The translations under genes were made by a program, and so were the position numbers. From Dehalococcoidia bacterium (GTDB lineage: Bacteria; Chloroflexota; Dehalococcoidia; Tepidiformales; Tepidiformaceae): DNA of 32,969 nucleotides. The number at the start of each line of letters is the position of its first letter. Positions within the stretch are counted from its first letter, which is position 1. The stretch is from positions 1-32,969 of the forward strand of contig VXLW01000003.1 of NCBI GenBank assembly GCA_009841435.1, written 5' to 3'. The notes beneath the pieces are model-generated. The model was not told the origin of the DNA, made no database searches, and was given only the letters and a program-made list of their open reading frames with translations. This document shows, in pieces, positions 6,449 through 32,694 of the stretch.

Positions 6449-9400
6449 ATGTCGGCCAACGAGCAGTCCAGCCCCACGATGCAACCTCACTCCGCCGGCG
6501 AGCCCATCGCCATCGTAGGGATGGCCTGCCGGTTCCCCGGTGCGAACGACCTCGATTCCTTCTGGAAGCTCCTCGAAGAGGGCGGGAACGCGATTACCGA
6601 GAACGTCCCCGGCGCCACCGGGGGGCGGATGGGGACGCTCTTCGGCGATGCCGAGCTCCCGAACGAAGCCTGCCGCTTCGGCGCGTTCGTCGACGACATC
6701 GAGCAATTCGACGCCGCCTTCTTCCGCATCTCCCCCGTCGAGGCGCAGCTCCTCGACCCCCAGCAGCGCATGATGCTGGAGACGACCTGGCTGGCGCTCG
6801 AGGACGCCGGAATCGACCCCGAACGGCTGCGCGAGACGCGCACCGGCGTCTACACCGGTATCAGCAACGACGAGTACCGCATGCTCGTCCTCGATACCAC
6901 CAGGCCAACCGAAGCGGCTGGCTCCCTCTACGCCCTCAGTGGCACCAACCTGAACGGCACCAGCGGCCGAGTCTCCTTCGTCCTCGGCCTGATGGGCCCC
7001 GCCAAGGCCGTCGACGCCGCCTGCGCGTCCGCGCTCGTGGCCGTGCACGACGCCGTCGCCGACCTCCAGGCGGGGAAGGCCGACCTCGCCATCGCCGGCG
7101 GCGTCCAGGCCATCCTCAACGGTCGCATCTACGAACTGCGCGCCGACTCGATGATGTTGTCCCCCGATGGGCAGTGCAAGGCGTTCGACGCCTCCGCGAA
7201 CGGCTACGTACGGGGCGAGGGCTGCGGCGTAGTCGTGCTCAAGCGGCTCAGCGAGGCGGAGGCCGACGGCGACCGTATCTGGGCCGTCATCCGCGGCGCC
7301 GCCGTCAACCACGGGGGCGCCAGCGTCGGCCTGACCGTCCCCCACACGCCAGCCCTGGAGGCGGTCATCAAGGCGGCGCACGCTGATGCCGGTATCCCCC
7401 CCTCCGAGGTCGACTACCTGGAGGCCCACGGCACCGGAACCGCCGTCGGCGACCCCATCGAGATCAACGCCGCCGCCACTGTGTACAGCGAGGGCCGCGA
7501 CCCCGACCACCCGCTCCTCGTCGGGTCCGTGAAGACGAACATCGGCCACCTCGAGTCGGCCGCCGGAATTGCCGGGCTGATGAAGGCCGCCCTCGTCCTG
7601 AAGCGCGGCGTGATTCCCAGGCACCTGCACTTCAACGACCCCAACCCGAGCCTCGATTGGGAGCGCCTGCCCCTCCAGGTGACGTCCGAGAGCATGGAGC
7701 TCCCGAAGCGCGACGGCCGCCCCCGCCTGGCAGGCGTGAACTCCTTCGGCATCTCCGGAACGAATGCCCACGTCGTGGTCGAGGAGTACTGCCGCCCCGA
7801 CGGCGACGGCGACGGCGCAGGGGCCGAAGGCGCCGCGCAGATCGTCGCCGCATCACTGCCTGCCCCCCTGGCCGGACTTCCCTTGCCGGAAGAAGGGCTG
7901 GATTCCCGCCCGACGCGTCTCCTGCCGCTCTCGGCCAAGTCCGAGAACGCCCTTCGGGACCTTGCCCGGGGCTACCTTGCATGGCTCGACGAGCGAACCG
8001 CCAAGCTCCCCTCCGAAGGCGCCGCCTCCGACCCCCTCCTGTCGGACGCGGCATGGACGGCAGCTGTCGGCCGCAGTCACTTCGACTACCGAACGGGCGT
8101 CGCCTTCGAGGATGTTTCCTCATTGCGCGAGCGGCTAGGCGAGCTGGCCGAAGGAGCCGAGCCGGTGGAGCCGCGATCCGCAAGCACGATCGCGTTCGTC
8201 TACACCGGGCAGGGGAGCCAGTGGGCCGGCATGGGCCAGGCCCTCTACGAGAGCGAGCCCGTCGCCAGGGCCGTCTTCGACCGCTGCGAGGCCGTGTTCC
8301 GGGAGGCGCGGGGCGCATCCCTCCTGGATGTCATGTTCGGGCGAGCCGCCGGCCAGGGCGACCTCGGCGACACCGCATGGGAGCAGCCCGCTCTCTACGC
8401 GCTCGAGTGTGCGCTGACCGCCCTCTGGTCCAGTGTCGGCATCCGGCCGGAGGTGGTGGTTGGCCATAGCGTCGGGGAGATAGCGGCGGCGCAGGCGGCG
8501 GGCGTGTTCAGCCTCGAAGACGGCATGCGCTTCGCCGAGGCGCGCGGCTCGCTGCTCTCCGGGATGGAAGGCGGTGGCATGGCCGCCGTCTTCGCGCCCC
8601 CGGAGCAGGTGGCCGCGGCGGTTGAAGCGTTCAACGCGGAGTCGGAGGGCGTCGGGCTGAGCATTGCGGCCGACAACGGCGCCCACCAGGTCGTCAGCGG
8701 TCCTGTTGCGGACATCGAGACCATCTCGGACAAGCTTGAGGCGCAAGAGCTACGGGTCAGGCGGCTCGACACCGCCAAGGCCTTCCACAGCGCCCTCGTC
8801 GAACCGGTCCTGGAGGGGCTGGAGGCCTCGCTCGAAGGAGTGGAGATCCGCTCGCCCGAGCTGACCGTGATCAGCAACGTCACGGGCCGGCCGGTAGACC
8901 CGGACACGCCCCTCGATGCCGCCTACTGGCAGCGCCATGCGCGGCAGGCCGTCGCCTTTGCCGGCGGCGTCGAGTCACTCGCGGAGCTCGGCGTCGACCT
9001 CGTGGTCGAGATAGGCCCGGACTCCGTCCTCGGCACGATGGCGACGCTTTGCTGGCCTTCCGACAAGGCCGCCCCCGCCGCCCTCGCCAGCCTGCGGCGT
9101 CCCCCCCGGGACGGTTCCTCGCCCGACCCCGAGGCCGGTTTCGCCGACGCGGTGGCTGCCGGTTACGAGGCCGGGCTGGACATCGCCTTCGAGGGACTCT
9201 TCGCCGGAGAAGCTCGCCGGCGAGTCTCCCTGCCGAGCTACCCCTTCCAGCGCGAGCTTCACTGGGTCGAGGCGACAAAGCAGCGGCGCCTCGGCGCGGG
9301 CCACCCGCTCCTGGGCGCCCGCCACGAGTCCGCCCGTGGCGACGTCGCGTTCGAGACGGAAGTCTTCCCCTCCGACCCCGCCTGGCTGGAGGACCACCGC

Positions 9401-12400
9401 GTGTTCGGGCGCTACGTGGCCCCAGGGGCGCTCTACGGCGCGATGGCGGCTACCGCCTCGCTCGTCGAGGAGAACAGCAACTCGCTCGTGATCGAGGACA
9501 TGCAGCTGCACAACCCCCTCGTCTTCGCCGAGCAGAGCCCCGAAGACGGCGCGCCTGAAGAGGGCCGCAGGATGCAGGTCGTGCTCGACGTTGCCGAGGG
9601 AGCGTCGGCGCGACAGGTCACCGTCTTCAGCAAGGGGACAGAGGAAGGCTGGACGGTCCACCTCGAAGGCCGCGTTCTGCCGGGCGCCCCGATGCCGGAG
9701 GCCGGAGAGCGCATCGACCTCGACGAGCTGAAGGCCCGCCTCTCACAGGCGGACGTGTCCGACTACTACCGCGCCAAGGCCGCGACCGGCATCAATCTCG
9801 GGCCGTTCTTCCGCACGCTGGGACGGGTCTGGTCCGCGCCGGGCGAGGCGCTCGGTGAGGTCACCCTCCCGGACGCCCTTGGCCGGAACGAGTTGGACAT
9901 CCACCCGCTTGTGCTCGACGGCTGCTTCCAGGTCGTGGGCGTGGCTCGGAACATGTCCGGCGCCCCCGGTGAGGCCACCTACCTGCCCTTCGGCTGGGAC
10001 CGCATGTGGCTGAGCGGGCGGCTGCCCGACCGCGTCCTCTGCCACGTGGTCATGAGCGACTCCGCCGCGGACGCGGAGTCGAGCGAGACCCCCGAGGTCC
10101 TGACCGGCGAGGTACGCATCTACGACACGAATGGCGTCCTCCTCGGCGGGCTCGGCGGGTACACCGTCAAGCGGGCCACCCGCGCCGCCCTGCTGTCGGC
10201 TGTTGAAGGCGTGCGCGACCTGCTCTACGAGGTCACCTGGCGGGACCGCGCCCTCGAGTCGGGTATCCAGCCCGCGGACTTCTTCCCGCGCGCTGCCAGC
10301 GTCGCGGCCGCCTCGGACTCCTTCGCCGAGTACCTTGCCGCTGCCGAAGTCGATCCCGACGACCGCGTCGCGCTCCTTGCCGACCTGGAACGCTGGTCGC
10401 ACGCCTACGCCCTGCTGAACCTGGAGAAGCTTGGCTGGCAGCGCCGGTCGGGCGATGTCGTCGATGCAGACGAGTTGAGGCAGCGCCTCGGCGTTGTCGA
10501 GGAGCACGACCGCCTCTTCCGCCGGATGTTCGACATGCTCGCCAGGGCGGGCGTCGTGGAGGAGAAGGACGGAAGCTTCGTCGTCGTGATCGGGGCGGAT
10601 GATCCCCTGCCCGAACAGCTGCCCGCAGACCCCGAGGGGTACGCCGCCGAGATGGCGAGCCGCTACTCCCACGGTCTGACTGAGGTCGGGCTATTCAGCC
10701 GCTCCGCCGGTGCCCTCGCCGATGTGCTACGCGGCGAGATGGACCCCCTCACGCTCCTCTTCAGCAGTGGCGAACCGACCGCCGGCGACCTTTACCTGAA
10801 GGCGCCCGTCGCCCGCGCCGCCAACGGCATGCTCGCCGACGCCGTCCGGGCGATCGTCACCGAGCTGCCCGAGGGACGGCGGCTGCGCGTGCTCGAGGTC
10901 GGAGCCGGCACCGGATCGGCGACGGCGTCCGTGCTGCCGGAGCTGCCCGAAGGACGATTCGACTACGTCTACACCGACATTTCCGCCGGCTTCTTCGCGG
11001 AAGCGGAGGAGCGCTTCGGCGATGGCGGCGGGAGCATCGACTACCGCCCACTGGACATCGAGAAGGATCCGATCCCGCAGGGCTTCGACTCCCACGGCTA
11101 CGACCTCATCATCGCCTCCAATGTCCTCCACGCCACGCGCTACCTTGGCGAGACGCTGGCGCACTGCCTGGACGTGCTCTCGCCCTCCGGACACCTCGTC
11201 GCCCTCGAGAACCTTCGCGGCCTGGGCTGGATGGACCTGACCTTCGGCCAGCTCGACGGCTGGTGGCGCTTCGCGGACCCGTTCCGCACCGAGCACGCCC
11301 TCATGGGCCCGACCATGTGGCGCCAGGCGCTCGCCGACGCCGGGTTCGACGAAGCCGAGGTCATTGGCGTCGGAGAAGACGCCCCGACGGAGAAGCTGGA
11401 CAAGGGCGTGATCGTGGCCAGGGGACCGGCGCAGATCACCGAGCCTCCGGGCACCTGGATCCTGACCGCCGATCAGGGTGGCCTCGCCGAACAGCTAGCC
11501 GCCGAGCTCGCCGAGCGCAACCAGACGGTCGTGCTGGCCGGCGAGGAAGCTGTCGATCCTGAAAGCCGCGAGTCCTGGGCGGCGCTCATCGAGGGTCTTC
11601 CCGCGGACCTCCCCCTCAACGGCGTCGTGCACCTCCAGGCGCTTGAGGGCCATGGCGAAGGGGCGACCACCGAAGAGATTACGCAGGACGTGAAGGACGC
11701 CGGCGCGAGCGGGCTGGCGCTGGTCCAGGCCATTTCCGATTCCGACGTCATCCCCGAGAAGGGCATCTGGTTCGTCACGCGCGGAGCGCAGGTCCTCGAG
11801 CGGGAGCGCGGCGGGGAGCTCGCCGGCGCCGTGTTGTGGGGGCTGGGCAAGGTGGTGGCGCTGGAAGCTCCTCACCTCCAGCCGCGCATGATCGACCTCG
11901 ACCCCGCCGGGACGGGCGCGCTCTCCGACCTCGTGAACGAGCTGCTCCATCCCGACGAGGAGAACCACATCGCCTACCGCCTCGGACGCCGCCTCGCCGC
12001 GCGACTCGTCCGGCCCGAGGACGCCGCCCAGCGCCTCGCCCTGCCCGAAGACTCCGAGTGGGTGCTCGCCCCGGACAGCGCCGGTGTCTTCGAGCGCCCT
12101 GAGGTCAAGCAGCTCCCCGCACGCCCGCTGGAGCCGAAGGAGGTGCGTGTCGCCGTTGAGGCTTCGGGCCTCAACTTCTGGGATGTCTTCCGTTCGCTCG
12201 GCTTCATCGAGGAAGGCGACCTCGGCCGCGAGCTCTGCGGCTTCGTCGTCGACACCGGCTCCGAGGTCTCGACGGTCTCGCCCGGCGACCACGTCGTCGG
12301 ACTCGGTTTCGGCGCCTTCGCACAGGAAATGGTGACCCGCGAGGAGCTGGTCGCTCCCGCGCCCGAGGGTGTATCCGTGTCCGCGCTCGCCACCATCCCG

Positions 12401-15400
12401 AGCGCGTTCGTCTCGGCCGACCTCTCCTTCCGCTTCACCGGTCTCGAGCCCGGCGAGCGGGTCCTCATCCACGCCGGCGCCGGCGGCGTCGGACTCGCAG
12501 CCATCCAGCTCGCGCAGGCCGCCGGCGCGGAGGTGTTCGCCACCGCCAGCGCCCCCAAGCAGGGCTACCTCCGCTCCCTCGGCGTCGAGCACATCTTCGA
12601 CAGCCGCACCACCGACTTCGGGGAGGCGATCCTCGAAGCCACCGGCGGCGAGGGCGTCCACGTCGTCCTCAATAGCCTCACGAGCGAGGGCTTTATCGAT
12701 GCCAGCCTCGCCTGCCTGGCGAAGGGCGGCCGCTTCGTCGAGATGGCCCGCCGGGACATCCTCAGCTACGAGGAGATGGCCGCCCTCCGTCCCGACGTGC
12801 CCTACCACATCCTCGAGCTCGACGTCCTCAAGAAGACCGACCCCGCGCACGTCGGCGTCGTCCTGACCGAACTCATGGCGCGCTTCGCGACGGGTGAGCT
12901 CAAGCCCATCATCCACAGCCGCTGGCCGCTGGCCGAGGCGGGATCGGCGCTTGGCTTCATGCGGTCGGCCCGGCACATGGGCAAGATCGTCCTCACCGCG
13001 CCCCCCATCGTGGACGGCCAGCTGCGCCAGGATCGCACGTACCTTGTGACCGGTGGCCTCGGCGGCATCGGCATCGCCGTCGCCAACTGGCTCGCCGACA
13101 ACGACGCCGGCGCCATCGTGCTCAACGGACGCCGCGATCCCGATCCCGAGGCGGTAGAGGCCATCGAGGCCCTGCGCGCCCGTGGCGTTCGCATCGAAGT
13201 CGAGCTCGCCGACGTCACCGACCCCGCCGCCATCGACGCCATGCTGGCCCGCATGGACGAGAGCCTGCCGCCCCTCGGCGGCGTCATCCATAGCGTCGGC
13301 GTGCTCTCCGACGCCGCTCTCGGCAACCAGACCTGGGAGAGCTTCGAAACCGTCCTCTCCCCCAAGATCGTTGGAGCCTGGCACCTGCACCGCGCGACCA
13401 TCGACCGCGACCTGCACATGTTCCTGCTCTTCTCCAGCCGGGTCGGCGTCATGGGCAATCCGGGCCAGGCGAACCACGCCGCCGCCAACGCCTTCCTCGA
13501 CCAGCTCGCAGGCCACAGGCGCGCGCTCGGCCTGCCCGGACAGGCCATCGCCTGGGGCGCCTGGTCCGAGATCGGCGAGGCCGCGGAACAGCGCGAGCGC
13601 ATCGAACGCCAGCGCGCCTCCCGCGGCGGACGCTGGTTCACGCCGCAGCAGGGCATCAGGGCCCTCGAACGCATCGTCCGTCAGGACGCCACCACCTCCG
13701 TCGTCATGTCGATGGACTGGTCCGTATTCGAGGAAGCCGTCGAGGAGCGCCCCGCCTTCCTCGAGGACATGCTGTCGTCACCGGACGACGCGGCCGGTGA
13801 CTCGGCATCGTCCGAAGACGTGCTCTCGCAGCTCCGCATGGCCTCGGCCGCGGGGCACGAGGAGTTGCTCGCGTCCTTCCTGCAGCAGGAAGTGCGGGCC
13901 GTCCTCCGGCTGCCGACGGCCCCCTCGCCGACCATCGGGTTCTTCGACCTCGGCATGGACTCCCTGATGGCGGTCGAGCTGCGCAATCGCCTCAACCGCG
14001 CCTTCGCCGGCGAATACGTCGCGTCCAACACGGTCGTTTTCGACTACCCCGACATCTCCAGCCTCGCGCGCCACATCGCCGAGGAGCTCGGCCAGCCCGG
14101 CGAGCCCCGCGAGGCTCCCTCCGCCCCCGAGCCTGCTGCGCCCGAACGGCTCGTGCCCGGCCGCACCAGCGACGACGGCATCGCCGTCGTCGGCATGGCC
14201 TGCCGCTTCCCCGGCGCGGGCGATCTGGCGGCCTTCTGGGACCTCCTTGAGTCGGGGGCCGACGCCGTCACGGACGGCCGCCGGGACGCCGGTGAGTGGA
14301 GCGGCGCCGTGGGAGACCCAGAGGCGAAGGACGTTGCGAACCTGCGCGGCGGCTTCGTCGACGAGATCGACAGGTTCGATGCGCGCTTCTTCCGTATCTC
14401 CCCCATCGAGGCGCGGGCCATGGACCCCCGCCAGCGGATGATGCTTGAGACGAGCTGGGAAGCCCTCGAAGACGCCGGTTTCGACCCGAACCAGCTTCGT
14501 GGCAGCCGCACCGGCGTCTACGCTGGCCTTGGCGGCAGCGAGTACCGCGATCTGGTCGCGGCCAGCAACAAGGACCAGAGCTACCTCGGCACCACCGGCA
14601 GCGTCACGGTTGGCCGCATCGCCTTCGTGCTGGGCCTGGAAGGCCCCGCCATGCCCATCGACCTCGCCTGCGCTTCCTCGCTGGCGGCGGTCCACCAGGC
14701 GGGCGTTGCCCTGCAGCGCGGCGAGGTCGACCTCGCGCTCGCCGGCGGGGTCAACGTGGTCCTCTCGCCCGAGGTTTCCCGGTTCATGATGGAGCTGGGG
14801 ATGCTCTCGCCCACCGGCGAGTGCCGCCCCTTCGACGCCTCCGCCAACGGCTACGTCCGTGGCGAGGGCTGCGGGATGGTCGTGCTCAAGCGCCTGCGTG
14901 ACGCCGAGGCCGACTGCGACCGTATCTGGGGCGTGATCCGGGGCTCCGCCGTCAACCAGAACGGCGCCAGCGCCGCCCTGACCGTCCCCAACGGACCCGC
15001 CCAGGAGCGCATCATGGCCGAGGCGCTCGCCCAGGCCGGAGTCCTGCCCTCCGAGGTCGATTACCTCGAAGCGCACGCGACCGGCTCGCAGCTCGGCGAC
15101 CCGATCGAGCTGAACGCCGCCGCCTCCGTCTACGGCGAGGGTCGCGACACCGACCGGCCCCTGCTGGTCGGCTCCGTTAAGTCGAACATCGGCCACACCG
15201 AGTCGGCGGCCGGGATGGCGGCTCTCATCAAGACCGTCCTCGCCATGAACCGCGGCGTCATCCCCCAGCACCTCCACTTCGACGACCCGAATCCCCACGT
15301 CGAGTGGGACGACATTCCCGTGCGCGTGGCCTTGGAGGCGACCGACTGGCCAGACGTGTCCGGCCGCCGGCCGCTGGCGGGCGTCAACGCGTTTGGCCTC

Positions 15401-16669
15401 TCCGGCGCCAACGCCCACGTCCTCGTCGAGGGCTACGAACCCCCGCTCGGAGCGGCCGCGAGCAACGGGGCCACTGTTCCCGAGGGCAGCTCCCGGACCG
15501 TGCCCCTCGCGCTCCCGGACTCGACAGAGGCCGTTGGTGAAGAGTCGCCGGAGCGCGCGACCCGCTTCCTGCCGCTTTCGGCGAGGTCCGCGGGCTCGCT
15601 CCGCGACCTTGCCGAGCGCTACCGCTCGTGGCTCGACGGCGAGGACGGCGCCGCCTCCTCCGAAGCGCTCTCCGACCTGGCCTGGACCGCCGGCGCGGGC
15701 CGCGGCCACTTCCCCCACCGCGCGGGCGTCGTGTTCACCGACGCCGCGCAGCTCCGGCAAGGACTGGAGACGGTCGCCGCCACCTACGACGCCCCCGACC
15801 AGCCACCACCCGCCCCCGCGACCCGAGTGGCGCTCGCGTTCAGCGGACAGGGTGGCCAGTGGGCAGGCCTGGGCGAGTCGCTCTACCGCAGCGAGCCGGT
15901 CGCGCGAGCCGTCCTGGACCGCTGCGACGAGCTGATGCGGGAAGAGAGAGGCGTCTCCCTGCTTGAGGTCCTGTTCGGCGCCGAGCAGAACCTCGATGAC
16001 CCCGCATCGGCGCACCCCGCGGTGTACGCGCTCCAGTGCGCGTTGGCCGCGCAGTGGGCGAGTGTCGGCATCCGTCCACACGCGGTCGTCGGGGGCGGCC
16101 CCGGAGCTCTGGCGGCCGCGCAGGTTGCTGGAGCCATCTCCCTGGAGGAGGGCCTGCGGCTTGCGGCAGCGCACGGCGCCCTTGAAGCGCTCCCGGAAGA
16201 GGGTGCGCTCGGGGGCCTGGAAGCTGCCCTCGCTGCCGTGGCGCCCGAGGCCCCGTCCGCGTCGCTGGTCAACGGTGCGACCGGCCGCGTGGCCGAGTCG
16301 GTCGACGAGCTCGGCGCCGACTACTGGCGCACCCAGGCGCGTGATCCTGTCGAGCCCGGCGCCTGCGCGAAGACGCTCGCCCAGCTCGGCATCGACATCG
16401 TTATCGAAGTGGGCGCCGATGCAGCTCTGGGACCGGACTTGGGCGATGCCTGGCCGGAGTCCTCCGACGCGCCCATGGTGCTCTCAACCCTGGCGTGCCC
16501 ACCCGCCGAGGGAGCGTCACCGGAGACCGGTGACGGCTTCGTGAGCGCCGTCGCCGCCGCCTACGATGCCGGGCTCGACCTTGCATTCGCAGGGCTGTTC
16601 GCGGGCGAGTCCCGCCGCCGCGTCGCCCTCCCGACCTACCCCTTCCAGCGCAAGCGGCACTGGTTCTAG
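6449..16669 (+). CDS. Type I polyketide synthase, KS-AT-DH-cMT-ER-KR-ACP-KS-(degenerate)AT
   Basis: A 3406-residue cytosolic megasynthase. KS1: about 18-447, Cys192 (ACASAL), His327, His367. AT1: about 580-865, GHSVG with Ser674 and KAFH with His780, nearer to malonyl-type HAFH than methylmalonyl YASH. DH: about 950-1240, HxxxGxxxxP at His983 and HPLVLD with Asp1157. C-methyltransferase: about 1305-1645, VLEVGAGTGS. Structural psiKR about 1665-1830. ER about 1870-2185, GAGGVG. KR about 2195-2420, GGLGGIG, Lys2306, Ser2330, but His2343 at the usual Tyr position. ACP about 2468-2545, GMDSL with Ser2505. KS2: about 2576-2995, Cys2741, His2876, His2916. AT2: about 3126-3340, lacking catalytic residues. 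The protein stops at LPTYPFQRKRHWF, the usual post-AT linker. Module 1 should build reduced, SAM-methylated chains. No second ACP, thioesterase or PPTase is seen. It starts at ATG 6449 after GGTAGGAG. Confidence 0.93.
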   Translation: MSANEQSSPTMQPHSAGEPIAIVGMACRFPGANDLDSFWKLLEEGGNAITENVPGATGGRMGTLFGDAELPNEACRFGAFVDDIEQFDAAFFRISPVEAQLLDPQQRMMLETTWLALEDAGIDPERLRETRTGVYTGISNDEYRMLVLDTTRPTEAAGSLYALSGTNLNGTSGRVSFVLGLMGPAKAVDAACASALVAVHDAVADLQAGKADLAIAGGVQAILNGRIYELRADSMMLSPDGQCKAFDASANGYVRGEGCGVVVLKRLSEAEADGDRIWAVIRGAAVNHGGASVGLTVPHTPALEAVIKAAHADAGIPPSEVDYLEAHGTGTAVGDPIEINAAATVYSEGRDPDHPLLVGSVKTNIGHLESAAGIAGLMKAALVLKRGVIPRHLHFNDPNPSLDWERLPLQVTSESMELPKRDGRPRLAGVNSFGISGTNAHVVVEEYCRPDGDGDGAGAEGAAQIVAASLPAPLAGLPLPEEGLDSRPTRLLPLSAKSENALRDLARGYLAWLDERTAKLPSEGAASDPLLSDAAWTAAVGRSHFDYRTGVAFEDVSSLRERLGELAEGAEPVEPRSASTIAFVYTGQGSQWAGMGQALYESEPVARAVFDRCEAVFREARGASLLDVMFGRAAGQGDLGDTAWEQPALYALECALTALWSSVGIRPEVVVGHSVGEIAAAQAAGVFSLEDGMRFAEARGSLLSGMEGGGMAAVFAPPEQVAAAVEAFNAESEGVGLSIAADNGAHQVVSGPVADIETISDKLEAQELRVRRLDTAKAFHSALVEPVLEGLEASLEGVEIRSPELTVISNVTGRPVDPDTPLDAAYWQRHARQAVAFAGGVESLAELGVDLVVEIGPDSVLGTMATLCWPSDKAAPAALASLRRPPRDGSSPDPEAGFADAVAAGYEAGLDIAFEGLFAGEARRRVSLPSYPFQRELHWVEATKQRRLGAGHPLLGARHESARGDVAFETEVFPSDPAWLEDHRVFGRYVAPGALYGAMAATASLVEENSNSLVIEDMQLHNPLVFAEQSPEDGAPEEGRRMQVVLDVAEGASARQVTVFSKGTEEGWTVHLEGRVLPGAPMPEAGERIDLDELKARLSQADVSDYYRAKAATGINLGPFFRTLGRVWSAPGEALGEVTLPDALGRNELDIHPLVLDGCFQVVGVARNMSGAPGEATYLPFGWDRMWLSGRLPDRVLCHVVMSDSAADAESSETPEVLTGEVRIYDTNGVLLGGLGGYTVKRATRAALLSAVEGVRDLLYEVTWRDRALESGIQPADFFPRAASVAAASDSFAEYLAAAEVDPDDRVALLADLERWSHAYALLNLEKLGWQRRSGDVVDADELRQRLGVVEEHDRLFRRMFDMLARAGVVEEKDGSFVVVIGADDPLPEQLPADPEGYAAEMASRYSHGLTEVGLFSRSAGALADVLRGEMDPLTLLFSSGEPTAGDLYLKAPVARAANGMLADAVRAIVTELPEGRRLRVLEVGAGTGSATASVLPELPEGRFDYVYTDISAGFFAEAEERFGDGGGSIDYRPLDIEKDPIPQGFDSHGYDLIIASNVLHATRYLGETLAHCLDVLSPSGHLVALENLRGLGWMDLTFGQLDGWWRFADPFRTEHALMGPTMWRQALADAGFDEAEVIGVGEDAPTEKLDKGVIVARGPAQITEPPGTWILTADQGGLAEQLAAELAERNQTVVLAGEEAVDPESRESWAALIEGLPADLPLNGVVHLQALEGHGEGATTEEITQDVKDAGASGLALVQAISDSDVIPEKGIWFVTRGAQVLERERGGELAGAVLWGLGKVVALEAPHLQPRMIDLDPAGTGALSDLVNELLHPDEENHIAYRLGRRLAARLVRPEDAAQRLALPEDSEWVLAPDSAGVFERPEVKQLPARPLEPKEVRVAVEASGLNFWDVFRSLGFIEEGDLGRELCGFVVDTGSEVSTVSPGDHVVGLGFGAFAQEMVTREELVAPAPEGVSVSALATIPSAFVSADLSFRFTGLEPGERVLIHAGAGGVGLAAIQLAQAAGAEVFATASAPKQGYLRSLGVEHIFDSRTTDFGEAILEATGGEGVHVVLNSLTSEGFIDASLACLAKGGRFVEMARRDILSYEEMAALRPDVPYHILELDVLKKTDPAHVGVVLTELMARFATGELKPIIHSRWPLAEAGSALGFMRSARHMGKIVLTAPPIVDGQLRQDRTYLVTGGLGGIGIAVANWLADNDAGAIVLNGRRDPDPEAVEAIEALRARGVRIEVELADVTDPAAIDAMLARMDESLPPLGGVIHSVGVLSDAALGNQTWESFETVLSPKIVGAWHLHRATIDRDLHMFLLFSSRVGVMGNPGQANHAAANAFLDQLAGHRRALGLPGQAIAWGAWSEIGEAAEQRERIERQRASRGGRWFTPQQGIRALERIVRQDATTSVVMSMDWSVFEEAVEERPAFLEDMLSSPDDAAGDSASSEDVLSQLRMASAAGHEELLASFLQQEVRAVLRLPTAPSPTIGFFDLGMDSLMAVELRNRLNRAFAGEYVASNTVVFDYPDISSLARHIAEELGQPGEPREAPSAPEPAAPERLVPGRTSDDGIAVVGMACRFPGAGDLAAFWDLLESGADAVTDGRRDAGEWSGAVGDPEAKDVANLRGGFVDEIDRFDARFFRISPIEARAMDPRQRMMLETSWEALEDAGFDPNQLRGSRTGVYAGLGGSEYRDLVAASNKDQSYLGTTGSVTVGRIAFVLGLEGPAMPIDLACASSLAAVHQAGVALQRGEVDLALAGGVNVVLSPEVSRFMMELGMLSPTGECRPFDASANGYVRGEGCGMVVLKRLRDAEADCDRIWGVIRGSAVNQNGASAALTVPNGPAQERIMAEALAQAGVLPSEVDYLEAHATGSQLGDPIELNAAASVYGEGRDTDRPLLVGSVKSNIGHTESAAGMAALIKTVLAMNRGVIPQHLHFDDPNPHVEWDDIPVRVALEATDWPDVSGRRPLAGVNAFGLSGANAHVLVEGYEPPLGAAASNGATVPEGSSRTVPLALPDSTEAVGEESPERATRFLPLSARSAGSLRDLAERYRSWLDGEDGAASSEALSDLAWTAGAGRGHFPHRAGVVFTDAAQLRQGLETVAATYDAPDQPPPAPATRVALAFSGQGGQWAGLGESLYRSEPVARAVLDRCDELMREERGVSLLEVLFGAEQNLDDPASAHPAVYALQCALAAQWASVGIRPHAVVGGGPGALAAAQVAGAISLEEGLRLAAAHGALEALPEEGALGGLEAALAAVAPEAPSASLVNGATGRVAESVDELGADYWRTQARDPVEPGACAKTLAQLGIDIVIEVGADAALGPDLGDAWPESSDAPMVLSTLACPPAEGASPETGDGFVSAVAAAYDAGLDLAFAGLFAGESRRRVALPTYPFQRKRHWF
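15824..16468 (+). other. Degenerate second acyltransferase domain of the PKS
   Basis: Residues about 3126-3340 align with AT1: ALAFSGQGGQWAG at the start and DYWRTQARDPV before the end. The nucleophile motif GHSxG is replaced by GGGPG (3215-3219, codons at 16091-16105), so His and Ser are gone. Between AAHG (3241) and YWRTQ (3292) there are about 52 residues, against about 130 in AT1. The ferredoxin-like subdomain with the catalytic KAFH histidine is therefore deleted by about 78 residues. The reading frame and post-AT linker stay intact, so the remnant is translated and perhaps structural. Confidence 0.85.
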
Positions 16670-24033: not shown

Positions 24034-24061
24034 GAGCGCCTAAGCGAGCTTCGTGAAGCTC
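24011..24061. terminator. Hairpins at a convergent gene junction (possible bidirectional terminator)
   Basis: Two perfect inverted repeats sit where the molybdopterin oxidase (plus) and the P450 (minus) meet: CCCACCCG/CGGGTGGG around a 3-nt loop (24011-24029) and GAGCTTC/GAAGCTC around GT (24046-24061). Each gene would end between them. Neither has a T-tract, so function as a Rho-independent terminator is uncertain; in very GC-rich genomes tail-less hairpins are often found at such sites. Confidence 0.4.
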
Positions 24062-25314
24062 AGCTTCAGCCTGATCGGGATGCGCTGGATCACGCTCGGA
24101 ACGTAGGGAGGATCGCCCTCCATCATGCGGATTTCGCCCATCCGCCGCAGCAGCTCCTGCATCGCCACGCGCCCCTCCTGCCGCGCCAGGCCGGCCCCCG
24201 GGCAGTAGTGCACCCCGTGCCCGAATCCCAGGTGCGGGCACGTCTGCTCGCGGCCGAGGTCGAACACCTCGCCGTTGTCGAACTTCTCCGCGTCGTGGTT
24301 CCCCGACCCGTAGATGACCATCAGCTTCTCGCCCCGCTTCACGGGCACGCCGCCGACGGTCGTGTCCTGGAGGGCGATCCGGAACACGCCCGGCACGGGC
24401 GTGTCGTAGCGCAGGACCTCTTCGATGAAGCCACCCGCGAGCGACGGGTCGTCCCGCAGCGCCTGCATCACGTCCGGTTGCCGCAACAGGACGAGCATTG
24501 CGTTCGTCATCAGCTCCGGCGTGTTCGCGTCGCCCCCCGCCGCGTACAGCAGCGTGATCATGCTCACGAGGGACTCCAGCGCCACGGGCTCGCCAGAATC
24601 CACGAAAGTGGCGTTCGCGAGGTCGCTCATGATGTCGCCCCGCGGCTGCTCCCTCCGCTCCGCCATCGCCTTCATGAAGTAGTCCGTGAGGAACTCGTTC
24701 TCGGTGATTTCCTCGCGCTCTTCTTCCTGCCGCTGGTAGGCCCCCGTCGGGTCCGCCGCCGCCTTGGCCATCACGGCGAGCCGGTCCATGAAGTACTGCT
24801 TGAAGTAGTCGTGGTCCTCGGGTGGCAGGCCGATCAGCTCGCCGACGACGAGCCGGGGCAGCATGTGCGAGAACTGCGTGACGAACTCGACCTCGCCTTC
24901 GTCGATGAACGTGTCGATGATCTCGTTCGTGATTTCGCGTACCCGCGGCTCCAGCCCCGCCACGTGGCGCGGCGTGAAGAAGCGGTTGATCAGCCGCTTG
25001 TGGCGCGTGTGGTCCGGCGGGTCGTTCGAGAGGATCTTGTCGCTGAACGGCTGCGAGTCGCGCCACGCCGGCAGGTCCTCGAGTGCCGCCGGCGGGTCCG
25101 TGTACGGCGCGTTCGCCACGAGGATGCTGGAGAACACCTCGGGCTGGGCGTTCACCTCCAGGATGTCCTCGTACCGGCTGAGCAGGAACACGTCGTAGTC
25201 TGGCTCCCGGTAGATGGGCGACTGCTCACGCAGCGCCCGGTAGAACGGGTACGGATTGGCCAGGATCTCCTCGTTCAGCTTGAGGAAACCGTAGTTCTCC
25301 AGCGCCTGGGTCAT
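24040..25314 (-). CDS. Cytochrome P450 downstream of the Rieske oxygenase
   Basis: A 424-residue soluble bacterial P450. The heme loop is LGFGHGVHYCPGAG with Cys371. The ExxR is Glu299-Arg302 (EEVLRY). The I-helix oxygen-activation motif reads AAGGDANT (258-265), so Ala263 stands where most P450s have the conserved Thr. This departs from the AGGETT of the second P450 in the window and may affect proton delivery. NDPPDHTRHKRLINRFFTP (98-116) is the usual C-helix region. The ATG at 25314 is 3 nt after the Rieske stop, so the two are co-transcribed and probably act on one substrate. No ferredoxin or reductase gene is adjacent. Confidence 0.93.
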   Translation of the reverse strand: MTQALENYGFLKLNEEILANPYPFYRALREQSPIYREPDYDVFLLSRYEDILEVNAQPEVFSSILVANAPYTDPPAALEDLPAWRDSQPFSDKILSNDPPDHTRHKRLINRFFTPRHVAGLEPRVREITNEIIDTFIDEGEVEFVTQFSHMLPRLVVGELIGLPPEDHDYFKQYFMDRLAVMAKAAADPTGAYQRQEEEREEITENEFLTDYFMKAMAERREQPRGDIMSDLANATFVDSGEPVALESLVSMITLLYAAGGDANTPELMTNAMLVLLRQPDVMQALRDDPSLAGGFIEEVLRYDTPVPGVFRIALQDTTVGGVPVKRGEKLMVIYGSGNHDAEKFDNGEVFDLGREQTCPHLGFGHGVHYCPGAGLARQEGRVAMQELLRRMGEIRMMEGDPPYVPSVIQRIPIRLKLSFTKLA

Positions 25315-25317
25315 GCC

Positions 25318-27006
25318 CTACTCAACCCCGAGCCACTGGTCGTACAGCTCGTGGAAGTGCCGGATCTTCCCCTCCGAGTAGGCGGAGAAGTAGACGTACG
25401 GATCCTGCTTCGTCTTCAGGCCCTTCTGGATCTTGGGCAGGTTGTAGCAGTCCTGGTTCAGGACGCGTGCCAGCCCGCCCATCTCCGGCGCGAGCGTGAA
25501 GTCCTCGTCTTCCTCCAGCCAGTGCATCTGGGCCGCTGGCGGCATCTCCTCGCCTTCCGGCCACGGCACCAGGTAGAGCACCTCCATGATGCTGCGGTCC
25601 GGGTCGTCCCCGTATGGGCGGAAGCGATACACGATGCGGCTGAAGCAGCCCCACGGGTGGAAGTTCGGGAACAGGTTGTTGAAGTATCCGTCCAGCACCT
25701 CCGCATCGCAGAAGATGTCGGCCTTGTCGCCCATCACCTGGCGCAGGCCCTCGCGGGCCATCTCCGCGCCGCCCCTGCGCATCGCGAAGATCTCCTCGTT
25801 GTTCGGGTAGATGCCTCGTTGTGGGCTCGTGTTGGCGCCGACCGTGATCGCCCGGCACCAGTTCCCGAAGACGTCGTACTGCATGTTCGCGCCGTCGCCG
25901 CCGAAGGCCATCGCCTGCGGGTGCGTCGCCATCACGTGGTAGCCCTCCATGAAGGCCTCCTGCGTGATCTTCCAGTTCGCCGCGATCACCTTCGCCACGT
26001 GCATCTGCTTGTAGCGCTTCTCGTACTCGTACTTCGCGTAGTGCTGCGGGAGCGACCCGATGAAGTCCTCGAACGGCTCGCAGTCCGGGTCCGGGTTGAT
26101 GAACACGAAACCGCCCCACGTGCCCGTCTTCGCCTCGCGCAGGTGGCTGGCGTCCTCGCGAACCTCGGGGAAGTCCCACTCCGAGGGGATCTCGCGCAGC
26201 GAGCCGTCGATCTCCCAGCACCAGCCGTGGAAGGGGCAGCGGAACTCCGTCGCCTTCTTCCCGTCGAACTCACGGATCTGGCGGCCACGATGGAGACAGG
26301 CGTTGTTGTACGCCTTGAACTCGTTCTCCCCCGTCCGCACAACGATGTAGGAGAGGTGGGCGATGTCGTAGACGATGTAGTCCCCCACCTCGGGAATGTC
26401 GTCGACGTGGGCGGCGTACTGCCACACCTTCTTCCACAGCTTCTCGACCTCGAGGTCGTGCCACGCCTGGCTCGTGAAGCGCTCCGTGGGCACGCGCGTG
26501 ACGCCGCCGGGCATGGGCGAGTCCTCCCACAGCTCCGGCGGGATGCGCTCGGGGTAGGTATCGCCCGCCAGCACCTCGTGGAACGAGATGCCCTTCGAGC
26601 GCGGACCCTTCTCGGTCTCCCGTCCCGGGTCGCCCACGTACTTCGCGACCGTCGTCTGGCCCTGCGCCATGATCATGTTGCGAACCCCGTAGCGGGGGTC
26701 GCGCACCGAGCCCGTGTAGGCGTCCTCGGCCAGGTCGCCGGCGCTCAGCTCCTGCTGTTGCGCTTCTTCCTGCGCCGCCTTCTCGCGCGCTGCATCGAGC
26801 TGCGCGGCCATCTCATCCACGCCCGGCGGCAGGTCCGGCCCGCCCACGTACTGGAGCAGGTGTGGGTCGGCGCGCGTGATGTCGCCTTCTTCCCAGCGCC
26901 CCTCCCAGTCGAAGATGCCGTAGCTTTCGCCCTTGTGGACGCGCACGCGCCCATCGCCAAGGTCGTCATAAGTCGCGCCACTGATGGCATGCACTTCACT
27001 TCGCAT
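25318..27006 (-). CDS. Rieske non-heme iron oxygenase, alpha-subunit type, with long N-terminal extension
   Basis: A 562-residue ring-hydroxylating-type oxygenase. The Rieske [2Fe-2S] ligands are CLH (Cys237, His239) and CPFH (Cys257, His260). The mononuclear iron ligands are probably His357 and His362 in EAFMEGYHVMATHPQ and Asp519 in NQDCYNLPKIQ. Ordinary members are about 380-460 residues; here the Rieske part begins near residue 170. The preceding part includes an FDWEGRWEEG region, a charged helix (EMAAQLDAAREKAAQEEAQQ, about 65-84) and NMIMAQGQ. Its role is unknown. I chose ATG 27006 because it follows GTGGGGG and a TAGAAT box; an upstream ATG at 27093 would put coding sequence over the promoter and dyad. 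It is the first gene of an operon with the P450. Confidence 0.9.
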   Translation of the reverse strand: MRSEVHAISGATYDDLGDGRVRVHKGESYGIFDWEGRWEEGDITRADPHLLQYVGGPDLPPGVDEMAAQLDAAREKAAQEEAQQQELSAGDLAEDAYTGSVRDPRYGVRNMIMAQGQTTVAKYVGDPGRETEKGPRSKGISFHEVLAGDTYPERIPPELWEDSPMPGGVTRVPTERFTSQAWHDLEVEKLWKKVWQYAAHVDDIPEVGDYIVYDIAHLSYIVVRTGENEFKAYNNACLHRGRQIREFDGKKATEFRCPFHGWCWEIDGSLREIPSEWDFPEVREDASHLREAKTGTWGGFVFINPDPDCEPFEDFIGSLPQHYAKYEYEKRYKQMHVAKVIAANWKITQEAFMEGYHVMATHPQAMAFGGDGANMQYDVFGNWCRAITVGANTSPQRGIYPNNEEIFAMRRGGAEMAREGLRQVMGDKADIFCDAEVLDGYFNNLFPNFHPWGCFSRIVYRFRPYGDDPDRSIMEVLYLVPWPEGEEMPPAAQMHWLEEDEDFTLAPEMGGLARVLNQDCYNLPKIQKGLKTKQDPYVYFSAYSEGKIRHFHELYDQWLGVE

Positions 27007-27047
27007 GGTCGAACCCCCACCGGCCGCCGAGGCCGTTCGTGCCGACG

Positions 27048-27053
27048 ATTCTA
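27048..27053 (-). promoter_or_regulatory. -10 box of the Rieske-P450 operon
   Basis: TAGAAT on the minus strand (27053-27048) would start transcription near 27041, about 35 nt before the ATG at 27006. No consensus -35 is seen. The dyad at 27073-27100 lies just upstream, in the position of an activator or operator site. Confidence 0.45.
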
Positions 27054-27072
27054 CGCTGGTGCGATTGGGAGG

Positions 27073-27100
27073 GTAGTAGCTTGCGCATGGCAAGTACTAC
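27073..27100. promoter_or_regulatory. Dyad between divergent operons (operator candidate)
   Basis: GTAGTAGCTTGC (27073-27084) and GCAAGTACTAC (27090-27100) are inverted repeats, perfect apart from one extra G in the left arm, with a 5-nt centre. It lies between the minus-strand Rieske-P450 operon and the plus-strand operon with the second P450. A single regulator bound here could control both. Confidence 0.5.
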
Positions 27101-27136
27101 GGCGACTATTCCCTGTCAGGAGGGACAACACAGTAG

Positions 27137-27382
27137 GTGAAGACCACCTGGTACTTCGACAACATCGTGCTTCCCGGTCGGCCTGAAGTGGACGCTGAAG
27201 CCTGCCTCTCGGTGCTCGCTGCACCCATGGCGACCGAGGCTCAGCCCAACGGCCGGATGCGTTTCTGGGGAGAAGTGCCCTTTGGGGACTCCACGCGCGT
27301 GCTTCGCGTAGTTACACTGGAAGACGGCGAAACCGTCCATAATGCGTTCTTCGATCGCAGTTTTCGGAGGGAGGCGCAGTGA
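27137..27382 (+). CDS. Small hypothetical protein paired with a DUF2283 gene
   Basis: An 81-residue protein starting with GTG at 27137 (VKTTWYFDNIVLPGRP). The end RVVTLEDGETVHNAFFDRSF is distinctive. I recall similar small proteins, with a RFWG...LRVVTLEDGxTVHNAFFDR core, encoded directly before DUF2283 genes and sometimes compared with DUF4258/RelE-like toxins. This was not checked. A GGAGGG site at about 27119-27124 lies 12 nt upstream, a little far. Its stop overlaps the next start (GTGA), so the pair is translationally coupled. A toxin-antitoxin-like role is possible but not shown. Confidence 0.65.
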   Translation: MKTTWYFDNIVLPGRPEVDAEACLSVLAAPMATEAQPNGRMRFWGEVPFGDSTRVLRVVTLEDGETVHNAFFDRSFRREAQ

Positions 27383-27597
27383 AGCTCCGCTACGACCGCG
27401 AGACCGACATGCTCCACATCTCGTTCGGACAGCGAGTCGAGGTGGAGGGTTTCGACCTGTGCGACGGGGTGGTCGTTCACCTGGACGCGGAGGAGAACGT
27501 CGCAGGTATCGAAATCGAGAACGCTTCAGAGCAGGTTGACTTGGAGAGACTGCAGGCGGTTGTGGAGCGTCAGGGGCAACTGACAACCCTGACATGA
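27379..27597 (+). CDS. DUF2283 family protein
   Basis: A 72-residue protein with the DUF2283 pattern: MKLRYDRETDMLHISF (1-16), then VVVHLDAEENVAGIEIENAS (31-50). The start is GTG 27379, overlapping the previous stop by 4 nt, and its own stop overlaps the ATG of the P450 at 27594 (ATGA). The three genes are thus one translationally coupled operon. DUF2283 proteins are small and often found next to small putative toxins; the biochemical role is not established. Confidence 0.8.
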   Translation: MKLRYDRETDMLHISFGQRVEVEGFDLCDGVVVHLDAEENVAGIEIENASEQVDLERLQAVVERQGQLTTLT

Positions 27598-28859
27598 CTG
27601 CCGACACCTTCGACCCCGCCCTCCTTGAGGGCGAAGAGTTCCACCTGAACCCCTACCCTGCGCTCAAGCGCCTGCGCGACGAGCATCCCGTCTGGCAGCA
27701 CCCCCGCGAAAAGATGTGGTTCGTCACGCGGTACGAAGACGTTGTGGCTGGCTTCCTCGACCACGACGTGCTTTCCAGCACCATCTTCGAGTCCTCCCAC
27801 AGCGCCGTCTTCGGGCCCTCCCTCACCGCCATGGATGGCGACGAGCACTCCCAGAAGCGCGCCATCATTGCCCCCGAGTTCGTCGGCCGGAAGCTCGAGG
27901 CCTTCCTCCCTGTCATTGAGGACAACGTCCGCCGGCTCATTGTGGGCTTCACCGAGAAGGCTGCCCGCGAGCTTGTCGAGGGCTTTATCGATCGCCGCGA
28001 GACCGACCTCGTCGATACCTTCAGCACGCGCCTCCCCGTCAACGTCATCGTCGACATGCTCGCCCTCCCCCAGTCCGACCACGACCGCTTCCACTACTGG
28101 TACCCCACCTTCCTCGCCGGCCTCGCTCCCGACCCCGTTCTCCGCAAGAAGGGCATCGAGGCCAACGCCGAGTTCCACGACTACCTCGAGCCGTTCGTCC
28201 AGGAGCGCCTGCGCAACCCCGGCGACGACCTCATCTCCAGGCTCTGCGAGGCCGAGGTCGACGGCGAGAAGCTGACCGTCCACGACATCAAGTCGTTCGT
28301 GAGCCTCCTCCTCACCGCGGGGGGCGAGACCACCGACCGCGCCATCGCCAACCTCTGGTGGCTCCTCCTCAACCACCCCGAGCAGTTCGAGGCGGTGCGC
28401 CAGGACCACTCCCTGATCGATCAGGCCTTCACGGAGACGATGCGCTGCGAAGCCCCCGTCGGCGGCGAGGTCCGCCTCGTCATGCAGGACTGGGAGATGC
28501 GTGGCGTGACCGTTCCCGCCGGGTCGGTCGTGAACCTCTCGATCCACGGCGCCAACCACGACGAGCGCGTCTTCAGCGACCCGGCCACCTTCGACATCTT
28601 CCGCGACGACCTCTACATCGGTCGCGAGATGCGCGTCGGCTACCGCGAGGGAGGCAGGGCCAGCCACATCGGCTTCGGCCTCGGCAAGCACTTCTGCGTC
28701 GGCTACCAGCTCGCCCGCACGGAGGCCGTCGTGGGAACCCGCATGATCCTCGAAGCGATCTCCGACGTGCGCATCAAGCCCGGCCGCAACCCCGTCATGG
28801 GCGGGAACGCCGGCATGCGCTCCGTTACCTCCCTCGATATCGAGTTCAATCCCGCCTGA
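27594..28859 (+). CDS. Cytochrome P450 of the plus-strand operon
   Basis: A 421-residue soluble P450. The heme loop is IGFGLGKHFCVGYQLAR with Cys368. The ExxR is Glu281-Arg284 (TETMRCEAP). The I-helix motif LLLTAGGETTDRA (238-250) has the normal acid-Thr pair. Upstream DGDEHSQKRAIIAPEF (81-96) is the C-helix signature. Length is normal, and there is no membrane anchor. The ATG overlaps the DUF2283 stop. It is divergent from the Rieske-P450 operon across a shared dyad and is followed by an aldo/keto reductase with its own promoter. A shared oxidative pathway for a lipophilic compound is a reasonable inference; the substrate is unknown. Confidence 0.93.
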   Translation: MTADTFDPALLEGEEFHLNPYPALKRLRDEHPVWQHPREKMWFVTRYEDVVAGFLDHDVLSSTIFESSHSAVFGPSLTAMDGDEHSQKRAIIAPEFVGRKLEAFLPVIEDNVRRLIVGFTEKAARELVEGFIDRRETDLVDTFSTRLPVNVIVDMLALPQSDHDRFHYWYPTFLAGLAPDPVLRKKGIEANAEFHDYLEPFVQERLRNPGDDLISRLCEAEVDGEKLTVHDIKSFVSLLLTAGGETTDRAIANLWWLLLNHPEQFEAVRQDHSLIDQAFTETMRCEAPVGGEVRLVMQDWEMRGVTVPAGSVVNLSIHGANHDERVFSDPATFDIFRDDLYIGREMRVGYREGGRASHIGFGLGKHFCVGYQLARTEAVVGTRMILEAISDVRIKPGRNPVMGGNAGMRSVTSLDIEFNPA

Positions 28860-31281: not shown

Positions 31282-32694
31282 TCAACGCCCGCCCGAGGCT
31301 CGGCGCCCCAAAGCATGCCCGAGCAGGCGCACGACCAGAGAGGTCGCCCCGGCGCTGGCCGTGAACGATGCGACTGCCGCGGCGATGTTCGCCGCCAGAT
31401 CGCTCCCCGAACCACCCTCCGCAACATAAATCTCGTTCGGCCCTGGCCGTGAGGTGTACCCCTCGTCCGACCTTGGGGTCTGCACAGTCGGAGCTGGTGT
31501 TGCGGTAGGTGGCGGGGTATCCGAGGTGGTAGTCGGTGTCGGGGCGGGAGCCGGCGCGGGCGTGGGGGTTGGAGCCGGCATTCCCGTGGCAGTCGGTGCC
31601 CGGGTGGGAGCGGGAGAGCGAAGCGCTCTCCGTGAAGCCTCCGGCGCTGCCGATGCTGTTGGCGAGGAGATTGCCCTGGGCGCGGGTGTGGGTGTCGGGG
31701 TCGGGGATGGAGTGGCTGTCGGCGTTGCGGGAGTAGGCGTACCTGTCGGCGTGGGAGTAGGGCTCGGGCTGGGTGTGGGCGTTGGTGTCGGCGTCGGCGT
31801 TGGCGTCGGTGTCGCGGTCGGTGCGGGTGTTGGGGTGGGTGTGGGCGTTGGTGTCGGAGTCGGCGTTGGGGTCGGTGTGGGGGTTGGAGTCGGCGTCGGA
31901 GTCGGCGTGGGCGTCGGCGTGGGCGTCGGCGTGGGCGTCGGCGTGGGCGTCACCCTTGCCGGCGGAACGTAGACGAAGGCGGGCCGGGGACGCGGCGTTG
32001 GAGTAGGCGTGGGCGTCGGTGTTGGAGTAGGCGTCGGTGTCGGAGTAGGCGTCGGTGTCGGAGTAGGTGTCGGTGTCGGAGTAGGCGTAGGTGTTGGGGT
32101 AGGTGTGGGAGTCGGAGTCGGCGTGGGAGTCGGCGTCGGCGTGGGCGTCGGTGTAGGCGTAGTTGCGGGCAGAGGGTTGATGGCAAGCGTGACGGTTCGC
32201 CACGACCGCTTCGTCCCTTCCACGAACGAAAACTCAGCGGTTCCGCTGCTGCCGGGAGCGCCTTGCAGCGCGTCGGCCGCGCCGGCCTGGACGCCCGTGC
32301 TTCCCCTGCTGGTCCTTGAGAAACGGCCAGCTGTCTCGCGGGGCGCACTGACCGTTCGGTCCCCGTCACCGACTGCGTAGATGTACAGGACCCGCGTCCC
32401 GGCATCCGCCGCCGTGATGCCGGGCGCGAGCGGCGCGTTCCCCTCCCCCGTACTCGCGGCAATGGTGCCGATCGGCGCCGTGGGGTTGATGTCGCCGTAG
32501 CGGAGGATGGCTCCCACGGCTTGGCTCTCCCCCCACAGCCAGCTCAGGGTGTGGCTCGTCAACTCCGTCCCATCCGCCAGCCGGTACCAGACCGCAAGCG
32601 TCGCTTCCTTGTCGTGAGCCAGCCCGCTGTCAATGAGCATCCAGCCGTCCGGCGCGCTCGGCGACCGTTCGTGGCGGGTCGCGAGGATGGCCAC
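31282..32694 (-). CDS. Beta-sandwich domain protein with long Pro/Thr repeats
   Basis: The formal open frame starts at GTG 32694 (470 codons), but coding similarity continues upstream in the same frame to 32916, where no ATG, GTG or TTG is found. The folded part reads [49 protein letters not shown] and [10 protein letters not shown]. This resembles beta-sandwich domains of bacterial surface and phage-tail-like proteins. Two nearly pure (Pro-Thr)n linkers follow (about 32160-31998 and 31948-31690) around a short [15 protein letters not shown] spacer. Then comes a Pro/Ala/Thr-rich stalk and a C-terminal tail with an apolar stretch ([24 protein letters not shown]). It is probably an extracellular or envelope protein. 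The start is unresolved and no signal peptide is visible. Confidence 0.7.
31690..32160 (-). repeat. Two hexanucleotide-like (CCN ACN)n tracts encoding Pro-Thr
   Basis: Degenerate 6-bp repeats occupy most of this stretch, in two blocks (32160-31998 and 31948-31690) separated by about 50 bp of unique sequence. The third bases vary, so the repeat has been conserved as protein more than as DNA. Long tracts like this are prone to copy-number change and to assembly error. Confidence 0.85.

Follow-up and report, generated by a model that had tools for sequence, protein, structure and literature searches.

The polyketide synthase (PKS) gene at the centre of this study raises the question of what a second KS and AT do behind the only ACP of a polypeptide that ends directly after them. 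The gene lies in the window, the whole 32,969-nucleotide stretch of DNA analysed here, which is an entire contig of a 2.7-Mb Chloroflexi metagenome-assembled genome (MAG) of 89.8% completeness. An earlier note on this DNA had read the protein as a single-module, SAM-methylating reducing synthase and its terminal KS-AT as something other than a truncated modular unit, and our analyses lend support to both readings. The PKS open reading frame (ORF) begins at an ATG preceded upstream by GGAG, is unbroken over 3,406 aa with a GC3 of 0.89, and has its stop codon directly past the post-AT linker (LPTYPFQRKRHWF). Pfam matches on the protein are, in order, KS, AT, PS-DH, methyltransferase, ER, KR, a single PP-binding domain, KS and a second AT match, and the linkers and pseudo-KR, which lie beyond Pfam, were located with purpose-built profiles. 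Both kinds of profile bear out the proposed order KS-AT-DH-cMT-psiKR-ER-KR-ACP-KS-AT in one polypeptide, with the stop at the post-AT linker. The features are as follows:

6449..16669, forward strand: Sup-like type I PKS, 3406 aa (ORF, Pfam and alignment)
6500..7783, forward strand: KS1 (Pfam; Cys, His, His and Lys all present)
8177..9058, forward strand: AT1 (Pfam; motif GHSVG...AFH)
9281..10183, forward strand: DH (Pfam; motifs DHRVFG and DGxxQ)
10376..11428, forward strand: C-methyltransferase, cMT (Pfam; motifs EVGAGTG and NVLH)
11441..12028, forward strand: pseudo-KR or structural region (alignment-based limits; named from its position)
12032..13000, forward strand: ER (Pfam and motif)
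13016..13738, forward strand: KR (Pfam; His at the catalytic Tyr position)
13856..14083, forward strand: single ACP (Pfam; GMDSL motif)
14168..15448, forward strand: KS2 (Cys-His-His present; sister of KS1 in the tree)
15554..15793, forward strand: KS-AT linker downstream of KS2 (Pfam and own profile)
15866..16483, forward strand: pseudo-AT2 (catalytic Ser and His subdomain lacking)
16544..16666, forward strand: post-AT linker (alignment and own profile; persists even in members with the AT2 core deleted)

Active-site motifs were found in AT1, the cMT, the ER and the ACP, the AT1 motif being presumably of the malonyl type, and a motif check confirmed that both KSs keep their Cys and two His residues. 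The DH His pattern gave a strict match in 52/82 cases, and DHRVF is retained in those variant forms that were listed. The catalytic Tyr of the KR is changed to His in 73/74 family members having the motif; the same change occurs in 7/16 outgroup KRs, and an interpretation of it as the mark of a dead KR was dropped for this reason. No thioesterase or terminal reductase family is present among the Pfam matches of the PKS protein. The claim that there is no exit domain takes no account of an alpha/beta-hydrolase that co-occurs with the PKS and is encoded on another contig in this genome.

Relatives were collected by a pattern scan of a named genome collection with a methyltransferase alignment, and the best 80 of 293 were used. 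All of these loci (80/80) are titled as MAGs and they span many phyla, KS2 being found in groups with ten different phylum or class labels. The titles include Chloroflexi, Gemmatimonadota, Gamma- and Deltaproteobacteria, Acidimicrobiia, Acidobacteria, Binatia, Latescibacterota, Nitrospinota and Nitrospirales, besides others, and single contigs may be subject to binning errors. A sponge is named in few of the titles of the best 80 (Candidatus Porisulfidus/lac_sponge, Palauibacter rhopaloidicola), the other bin names are, we assume, those of sponge studies, and the MAGs of the family appear to derive from sponges.

KS2 is present in 70/70 loci in which its place is visible among the best 80 of 293. 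In this set, 55 ORFs extend from the cMT to the tail, of which 52 finish with KS2-pseudoAT2-linker and 3 with KS2-linker, and the other loci comprise 10 in which the frame breaks near KS2 or the tail, 5 cut by the contig after KS2 and 10 cut before it. The 55 ORFs ending in this manner include 42 that are complete from KS1, 4 whose 5' part is lost at a contig edge, and 9 whose upstream part is missing or lies in another ORF. The same domain order recurs in relatives as 42 complete single ORFs, 3 of which (L066, L083 and L117) lack the AT2 core, and 13 further ORFs are open from at least the cMT up to this end. It had been considered earlier that close homologues might continue past the AT; none of the 55 ORFs that include the cMT and reach a stop codon among the best 80 of 293 does so. 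The only such member of the set is a 3' contig end (L046), where DH-like sequence follows the AT2 linker; it is only partly similar to the first linker-DH of the same contig and hence not a simple repeat, and L046 may be a chimera or a longer protein. The loci with frames broken around KS2 or the tail are L050, L051, L054, L064, L082, L092, L103, L115, L116 and L118; the available text on supA amplicons gives frameshifts in 15.4% (PMC4245539). The PKS of the window is one of a large family and no oddity.

Close relatives present the same picture on a finer scale. Two genomes of the same genus (G003 and G006) encode homologues of 3,405-3,408 aa with a layout identical to that of the window PKS, to which they show 95% identity overall and 89-90% identity from KS2 to the end. 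Open frames of 3,151-3,189 aa in three other genomes of the genus (G001, G005 and G007) and in one from another family of the class (G041) retain KS2 and both linkers and have no AT2 core. The PKS of G002, also of this genus, is split over contigs, and no PKS match was found in G004 (one contig) and G008 of the same genus. With the PKS as query at E 1e-10, matches were obtained in 17/294 genomes of the class and 41/400 of the phylum; the phylum-wide matches of up to 317 bits are mostly ordinary cMT PKSs, and a few are fragments.

The fates of the two terminal domains differ markedly in residue counts covering the window, the loci of five relatives and the best 80 of 293. In the 74 KS2 domains with >90% coverage, the Cys (74/74), the Lys (74/74) and the second His (74/74) are invariant and the first His is kept in 71/74, being replaced by Asn in L057, L114 and L116; KS2 has a looser form of the HGTGT motif found in KS1. 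The second AT, previously taken as an AT, does have an AT match, but lacks the catalytic Ser and the His subdomain. The GHSxG motif is replaced by GGGPG in the window AT2 and by GSRPG and GSGPG in the AT2s of the two nearest relatives, and the window AT2 also has no small subdomain, the part that would carry the catalytic His. Of the 70 tails that reach the stop, 2 (L105 and L108) have Ser at the nucleophile site, 58 have a different residue there and 10 have a gap, and at the position of the catalytic His there is a gap in 70/70; four of these tails (L064, L092, L115 and L118) are interrupted by frame breaks and carry little weight as to the His. L105 and L108 (Nitrospirales, Nitrospira) are the only two of the 70 tails to retain GHSLG in AT2, yet their His subdomain is missing. 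AT1 keeps its Ser in 75/76 and its His in 76/76 cases across the family set. The motif of AT2 reads GRGIG and GKGFG in the more divergent members L202 and L203, and eight members (L033, L034, L035, L037, L039, L066, L083 and L117) have lost the AT2 core and kept both linkers. Among the window, G003 and G006, dN/dS is 0.05-0.08 for KS2 and 0.15-0.23 for pseudo-AT2. These alignments and ratios provide clear indication of purifying selection on a KS2 with intact catalytic residues, and of relaxed selection, not freedom from constraint, on pseudo-AT2. AT2 is accordingly a pseudo-AT in all members examined, and KS2 is apparently a functional chain-joining domain. An AlphaFold model of KS2-pseudoAT2 (mean pLDDT 71.2, lower in KS2; pTM 0.53) adds little; nearly all of the 50 listed Foldseek matches of this model are KS-AT didomains or larger PKSs, with query TM scores of 0.43-0.46.

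The origin of the tail was addressed by a KS tree, constructed with FastTree using plasmid PKSs of Methylosinus, Methylocystis, Nostoc, Streptomyces, Rhodococcus and Bradyrhizobium together with Chloroflexota PKSs as outgroups. Support was 0.997 for the KS2 clade, 0.768 for the KS1 clade (1.0 in an earlier tree) and 0.996 for a sister relationship of KS1 and KS2; the earlier tree did not recover the FabF root set as a clade, and only the split from the outgroups was used. KS2 does not group with ordinary modular KSs, a placement that had been entertained before, and is the sister of KS1 among the KSs sampled. KS1 and KS2 identities are also correlated over 64 loci (Mantel r 0.52; 0/999 permutations as high). 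AT2 clusters with the AT1 of the family and is placed inside AT1, a position that may be due to long-branch attraction. With the limited outgroups used, these results would be most simply explained if the front KS-AT had been duplicated once, before the family spread over phyla, and AT2 but not KS2 had then decayed.

No biosynthetic cluster is apparent around the PKS in the window. Its upstream neighbours are a class II tRNA synthetase (tRNA_SAD domain), a tRNA-Val and a DinB-like match barely above the cut-off, and glycine-cleavage genes follow downstream on the opposite strand. Two cytochrome P450 genes flank one Rieske ring-hydroxylating oxygenase gene at 24043-28856 of the window; these genes and an aldo/keto reductase gene lie >7 kb from the PKS and are not claimed as part of the system. 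At 31469-32220 there is a long low-complexity array with 12/18-base steps within overlapping reverse-strand ORFs, perhaps encoding a repeat-rich surface or linker protein. The genome has nine matches to PF00109, two of which are KS1 and KS2 of the PKS and the other seven of which lie in frames of 224-573 aa. KSs of FabF size are present, and the only matches of PKS size are KS1 and KS2. An adjacent pair of KS-type genes (L005/L006, G000:C29:15282-17251) is possibly a KS/chain-length-factor pair.

These observations bear on whether the tail is the remainder of something larger. An incomplete modular PKS with its next module encoded elsewhere would be suggested by the fact that a terminal KS-AT normally precedes ACP-bearing parts, and also by the DH-like sequence past the linker at the L046 contig end; however, only two of the nine PF00109 matches in this MAG, with its high completeness, are of PKS size, AT2 lacks its Ser in 58/60 tails having the site, KS2 is sister to KS1, and none of the stop-reaching ORFs continues, and we judge this explanation very improbable. 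That the tail is the product of truncation, frameshift or misassembly could be argued from the 10 broken frames around KS2 or the tail among the best 80 of 293 and from the 9 more loci whose upstream part is missing or in another ORF, but the frame of the window is open over 10.2 kb and its layout is shared with G003 and G006 at the identities given above. This explanation has been ruled out for the window, and we accord it only a negligible probability.

The PKS tends to be accompanied by genes for three other proteins, namely an NCS2 permease, an alpha/beta-hydrolase and a HetI-like PPTase. Near the PKS, an Abhydrolase_6 protein is found at 51/84 loci, an NCS2 permease at 35/84 and a HetI-like PPTase at 24/84, counts that are lower bounds since flanks are short and L034, scored as lacking the hydrolase, yet has one. 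None of the three is found in eleven loci with >4 kb downstream (L049, L051, L052, L054, L058, L063, L085, L088, L094, L098 and the window). In the genome of the window, the hydrolase, PPTase and permease occur together on contig C126, apart from the PKS contig, and the three genes of G003 and G006 are likewise on a different contig from the PKS. The putatively catalytic Ser115, Asp248 and His277 of the hydrolase (numbering from the aligned L078 segment) show no variation in 61/61 rows, in which two pairs represent the same gene. The hydrolase was found in 7/7 genomes of a first comparison, 6 of them from the genus of the window; within this genus it is present in 6/6 PKS-positive genomes (G002 left out) and 0/2 PKS-negative genomes. 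In 26 chosen genomes, the hydrolase occurs in 12/13 with the PKS and 0/13 without it, and the NCS2 permease, at E 1e-30, in 13/13 and 0/13, respectively; all 13 PKS-negative genomes belong to the family of the window and all 13 PKS-positive genomes to other families, and the co-occurrence may for this reason reflect habitat or descent. The exception, G099, has the PKS and no hydrolase match, which speaks against the reading favoured below. Relatives of the NCS2 permease (cf. L207, G000:C126) are found in 2 to 6 places per PKS-positive genome in the 13 genomes.

In synthases composed of these domain types, the AT loads malonyl, the KS condenses, the cMT methylates the alpha carbon, and the KR, DH and ER reduce. 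From the conservation described above we infer that in this probable Sup-type PKS the KS1 module builds a methyl-branched chain, that KS2 takes this chain for condensation or transfer, and that a hydrolase or FAS II ends the process, a reading which we hold to be somewhat more probable than otherwise. AT1 would load malonyl onto the single ACP, and KS1, KR, DH, ER and cMT would iteratively make a short saturated chain to which an alpha-methyl is added. The branched chain would then pass from the adjoining ACP to KS2, which would carry out one or more additional condensations or an acyl transfer. As every AT2 examined is a dead pseudo-AT, only KS2 of the two terminal domains could extend the chain, and malonyl for KS2 would have to be loaded by AT1 onto the one ACP or be supplied by a carrier of FAS II. 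The acid would finally be released by the hydrolase, or the chain completed by FAS II. The His-to-Asn change in three KS2s and the relaxed HGTGT motif speak against a condensation by KS2, which could be weakened.

Two other roles for the tail have to be weighed against this one. KS2-pseudoAT2 could be a structural or docking platform that stabilizes the dimer or binds a partner and performs no catalysis; the dead AT2, the linkers that persist even where the AT core is gone, the relaxed HGTGT and the three His-to-Asn changes are all consistent with it, but a scaffold would not need the Cys, second His and Lys that every one of the 74 KS2 domains has kept over many phyla, and we consider such a role unlikely. 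KS2 might instead be an off-loading acyltransferase that delivers the chain to CoA, water, glycerol or another acceptor, with the hydrolase editing or releasing the product. The lack of a thioesterase or terminal reductase among the Pfam matches, and the presence near the PKS of a hydrolase with invariant Ser, Asp and His, would suit this proposal, which seems doubtful in that the decarboxylation His residues would be superfluous for it.

The reading that we favour, a methyl-branched chain built by the KS1 module and taken up by KS2, has a more specific form, a relay, which we consider rather unlikely and put forward tentatively: the two KSs would share one AT and one ACP, KS1 would make the straight chain, which methylation would mark, and KS2, as the duplicate of KS1, would accept only the alpha-methyl chain and finish it or hand it to FAS II. 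If this is true, the iteration programme would consist in which KS takes the chain. By arithmetic, 8-Me-C16 and 10-Me-C18 correspond to 2-methyldecanoyl plus three and four C2 units, respectively, as this arrangement would give. The available text of a study of five deep-sea sponges gives 8-/9-Me-C16:0 and 10-/11-Me-C18:0 as together making up at least 20% of the fatty acids, treats their producer as unsettled, and asks whether mid-chain branched fatty acids are common to several phyla (PMC7840048). Alpha-methylation gives branches at even positions only and the 9- and 11-Me isomers would not arise from it; hence, the PKS explains part of the mixture at best. For the even-position isomers, a conserved PKS with recurring partners in many phyla represents a concrete candidate, and a conserved KS2 beside a dead AT allows the programming of a synthase to be probed by one point mutation.

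Among known systems, fungal highly reducing PKSs have the first eight domains in identical order, and two of them (LovB and psoA) are PDB sequence matches of the window PKS, the first eight domains of which may work in the fungal manner; it differs from them in being bacterial and in its extra terminal KS-pseudoAT. The best PDB sequence match is mycocerosic acid synthase, which like Pks2 is an iterative lipid synthase not known to have a cMT, and the curated NCBIfam cut-offs were missed for Pks2 (1499.5/2400 bits), Pks13 (1258/2100 bits) and PfaA (614.4/1010.1 bits). The ketosynthases of trans-AT PKSs carry AT remnant linkers and resemble in this regard the eight family members with a KS followed by linkers without an AT core, but the family of the window has an intact cis AT1 alongside and no downstream ACP. 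Unlike in modular cis-AT PKSs, KS2-AT2 is followed by no ACP. In the available text on Swf, a PKS/FAS widespread in sponge symbionts, this enzyme is a single module of KS-AT-DH-ER-KR-ACP without a methyltransferase, and I or V replaces the second Q of DPQQR (PMC3908369). An identity with Swf was rejected: the window PKS has a cMT and its KS1 reads DPQQR.

By a circumstantial likeness to published descriptions, the PKS of the window is most likely a member of the Sup (sponge symbiont ubiquitous) group, which was reportedly described by Fieseler et al. in 2007. Like Sup, it is a FAS-like single module with a cMT, the latter being what we take as the basis of the branched-acid product proposed for Sup, and its family is spread over several phyla among the best 80 of 293 relatives. 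As far as the available texts extend, Sup is a small reducing PKS that dominates sponge metagenomes and has been proposed as a source of mid-chain branched fatty acids (PMC4245539), SUP-like clusters occur in Chloroflexota, Spirochaetota, Proteobacteria and Acidobacteriota (PMC9426513), and Sup PKSs are termed mono-modular (PMC4245539, PMC3908369). The window PKS consists of one complete module plus KS2-pseudoAT2. A terminal KS-pseudoAT is not mentioned in the available portions of the Sup descriptions (PMC4245539, PMC3908369, PMC9426513), and a domain-string phrase search of CC-licensed literature returned, in the text portions it covers, no description of a KS2-pseudoAT2 tail, a further search there matching only the Swf paper. 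Because the tail is found in every family member with a visible place for it among the best 80 of 293, the Sup clones of 2007 probably carry the KS2-AT2 tail as well.
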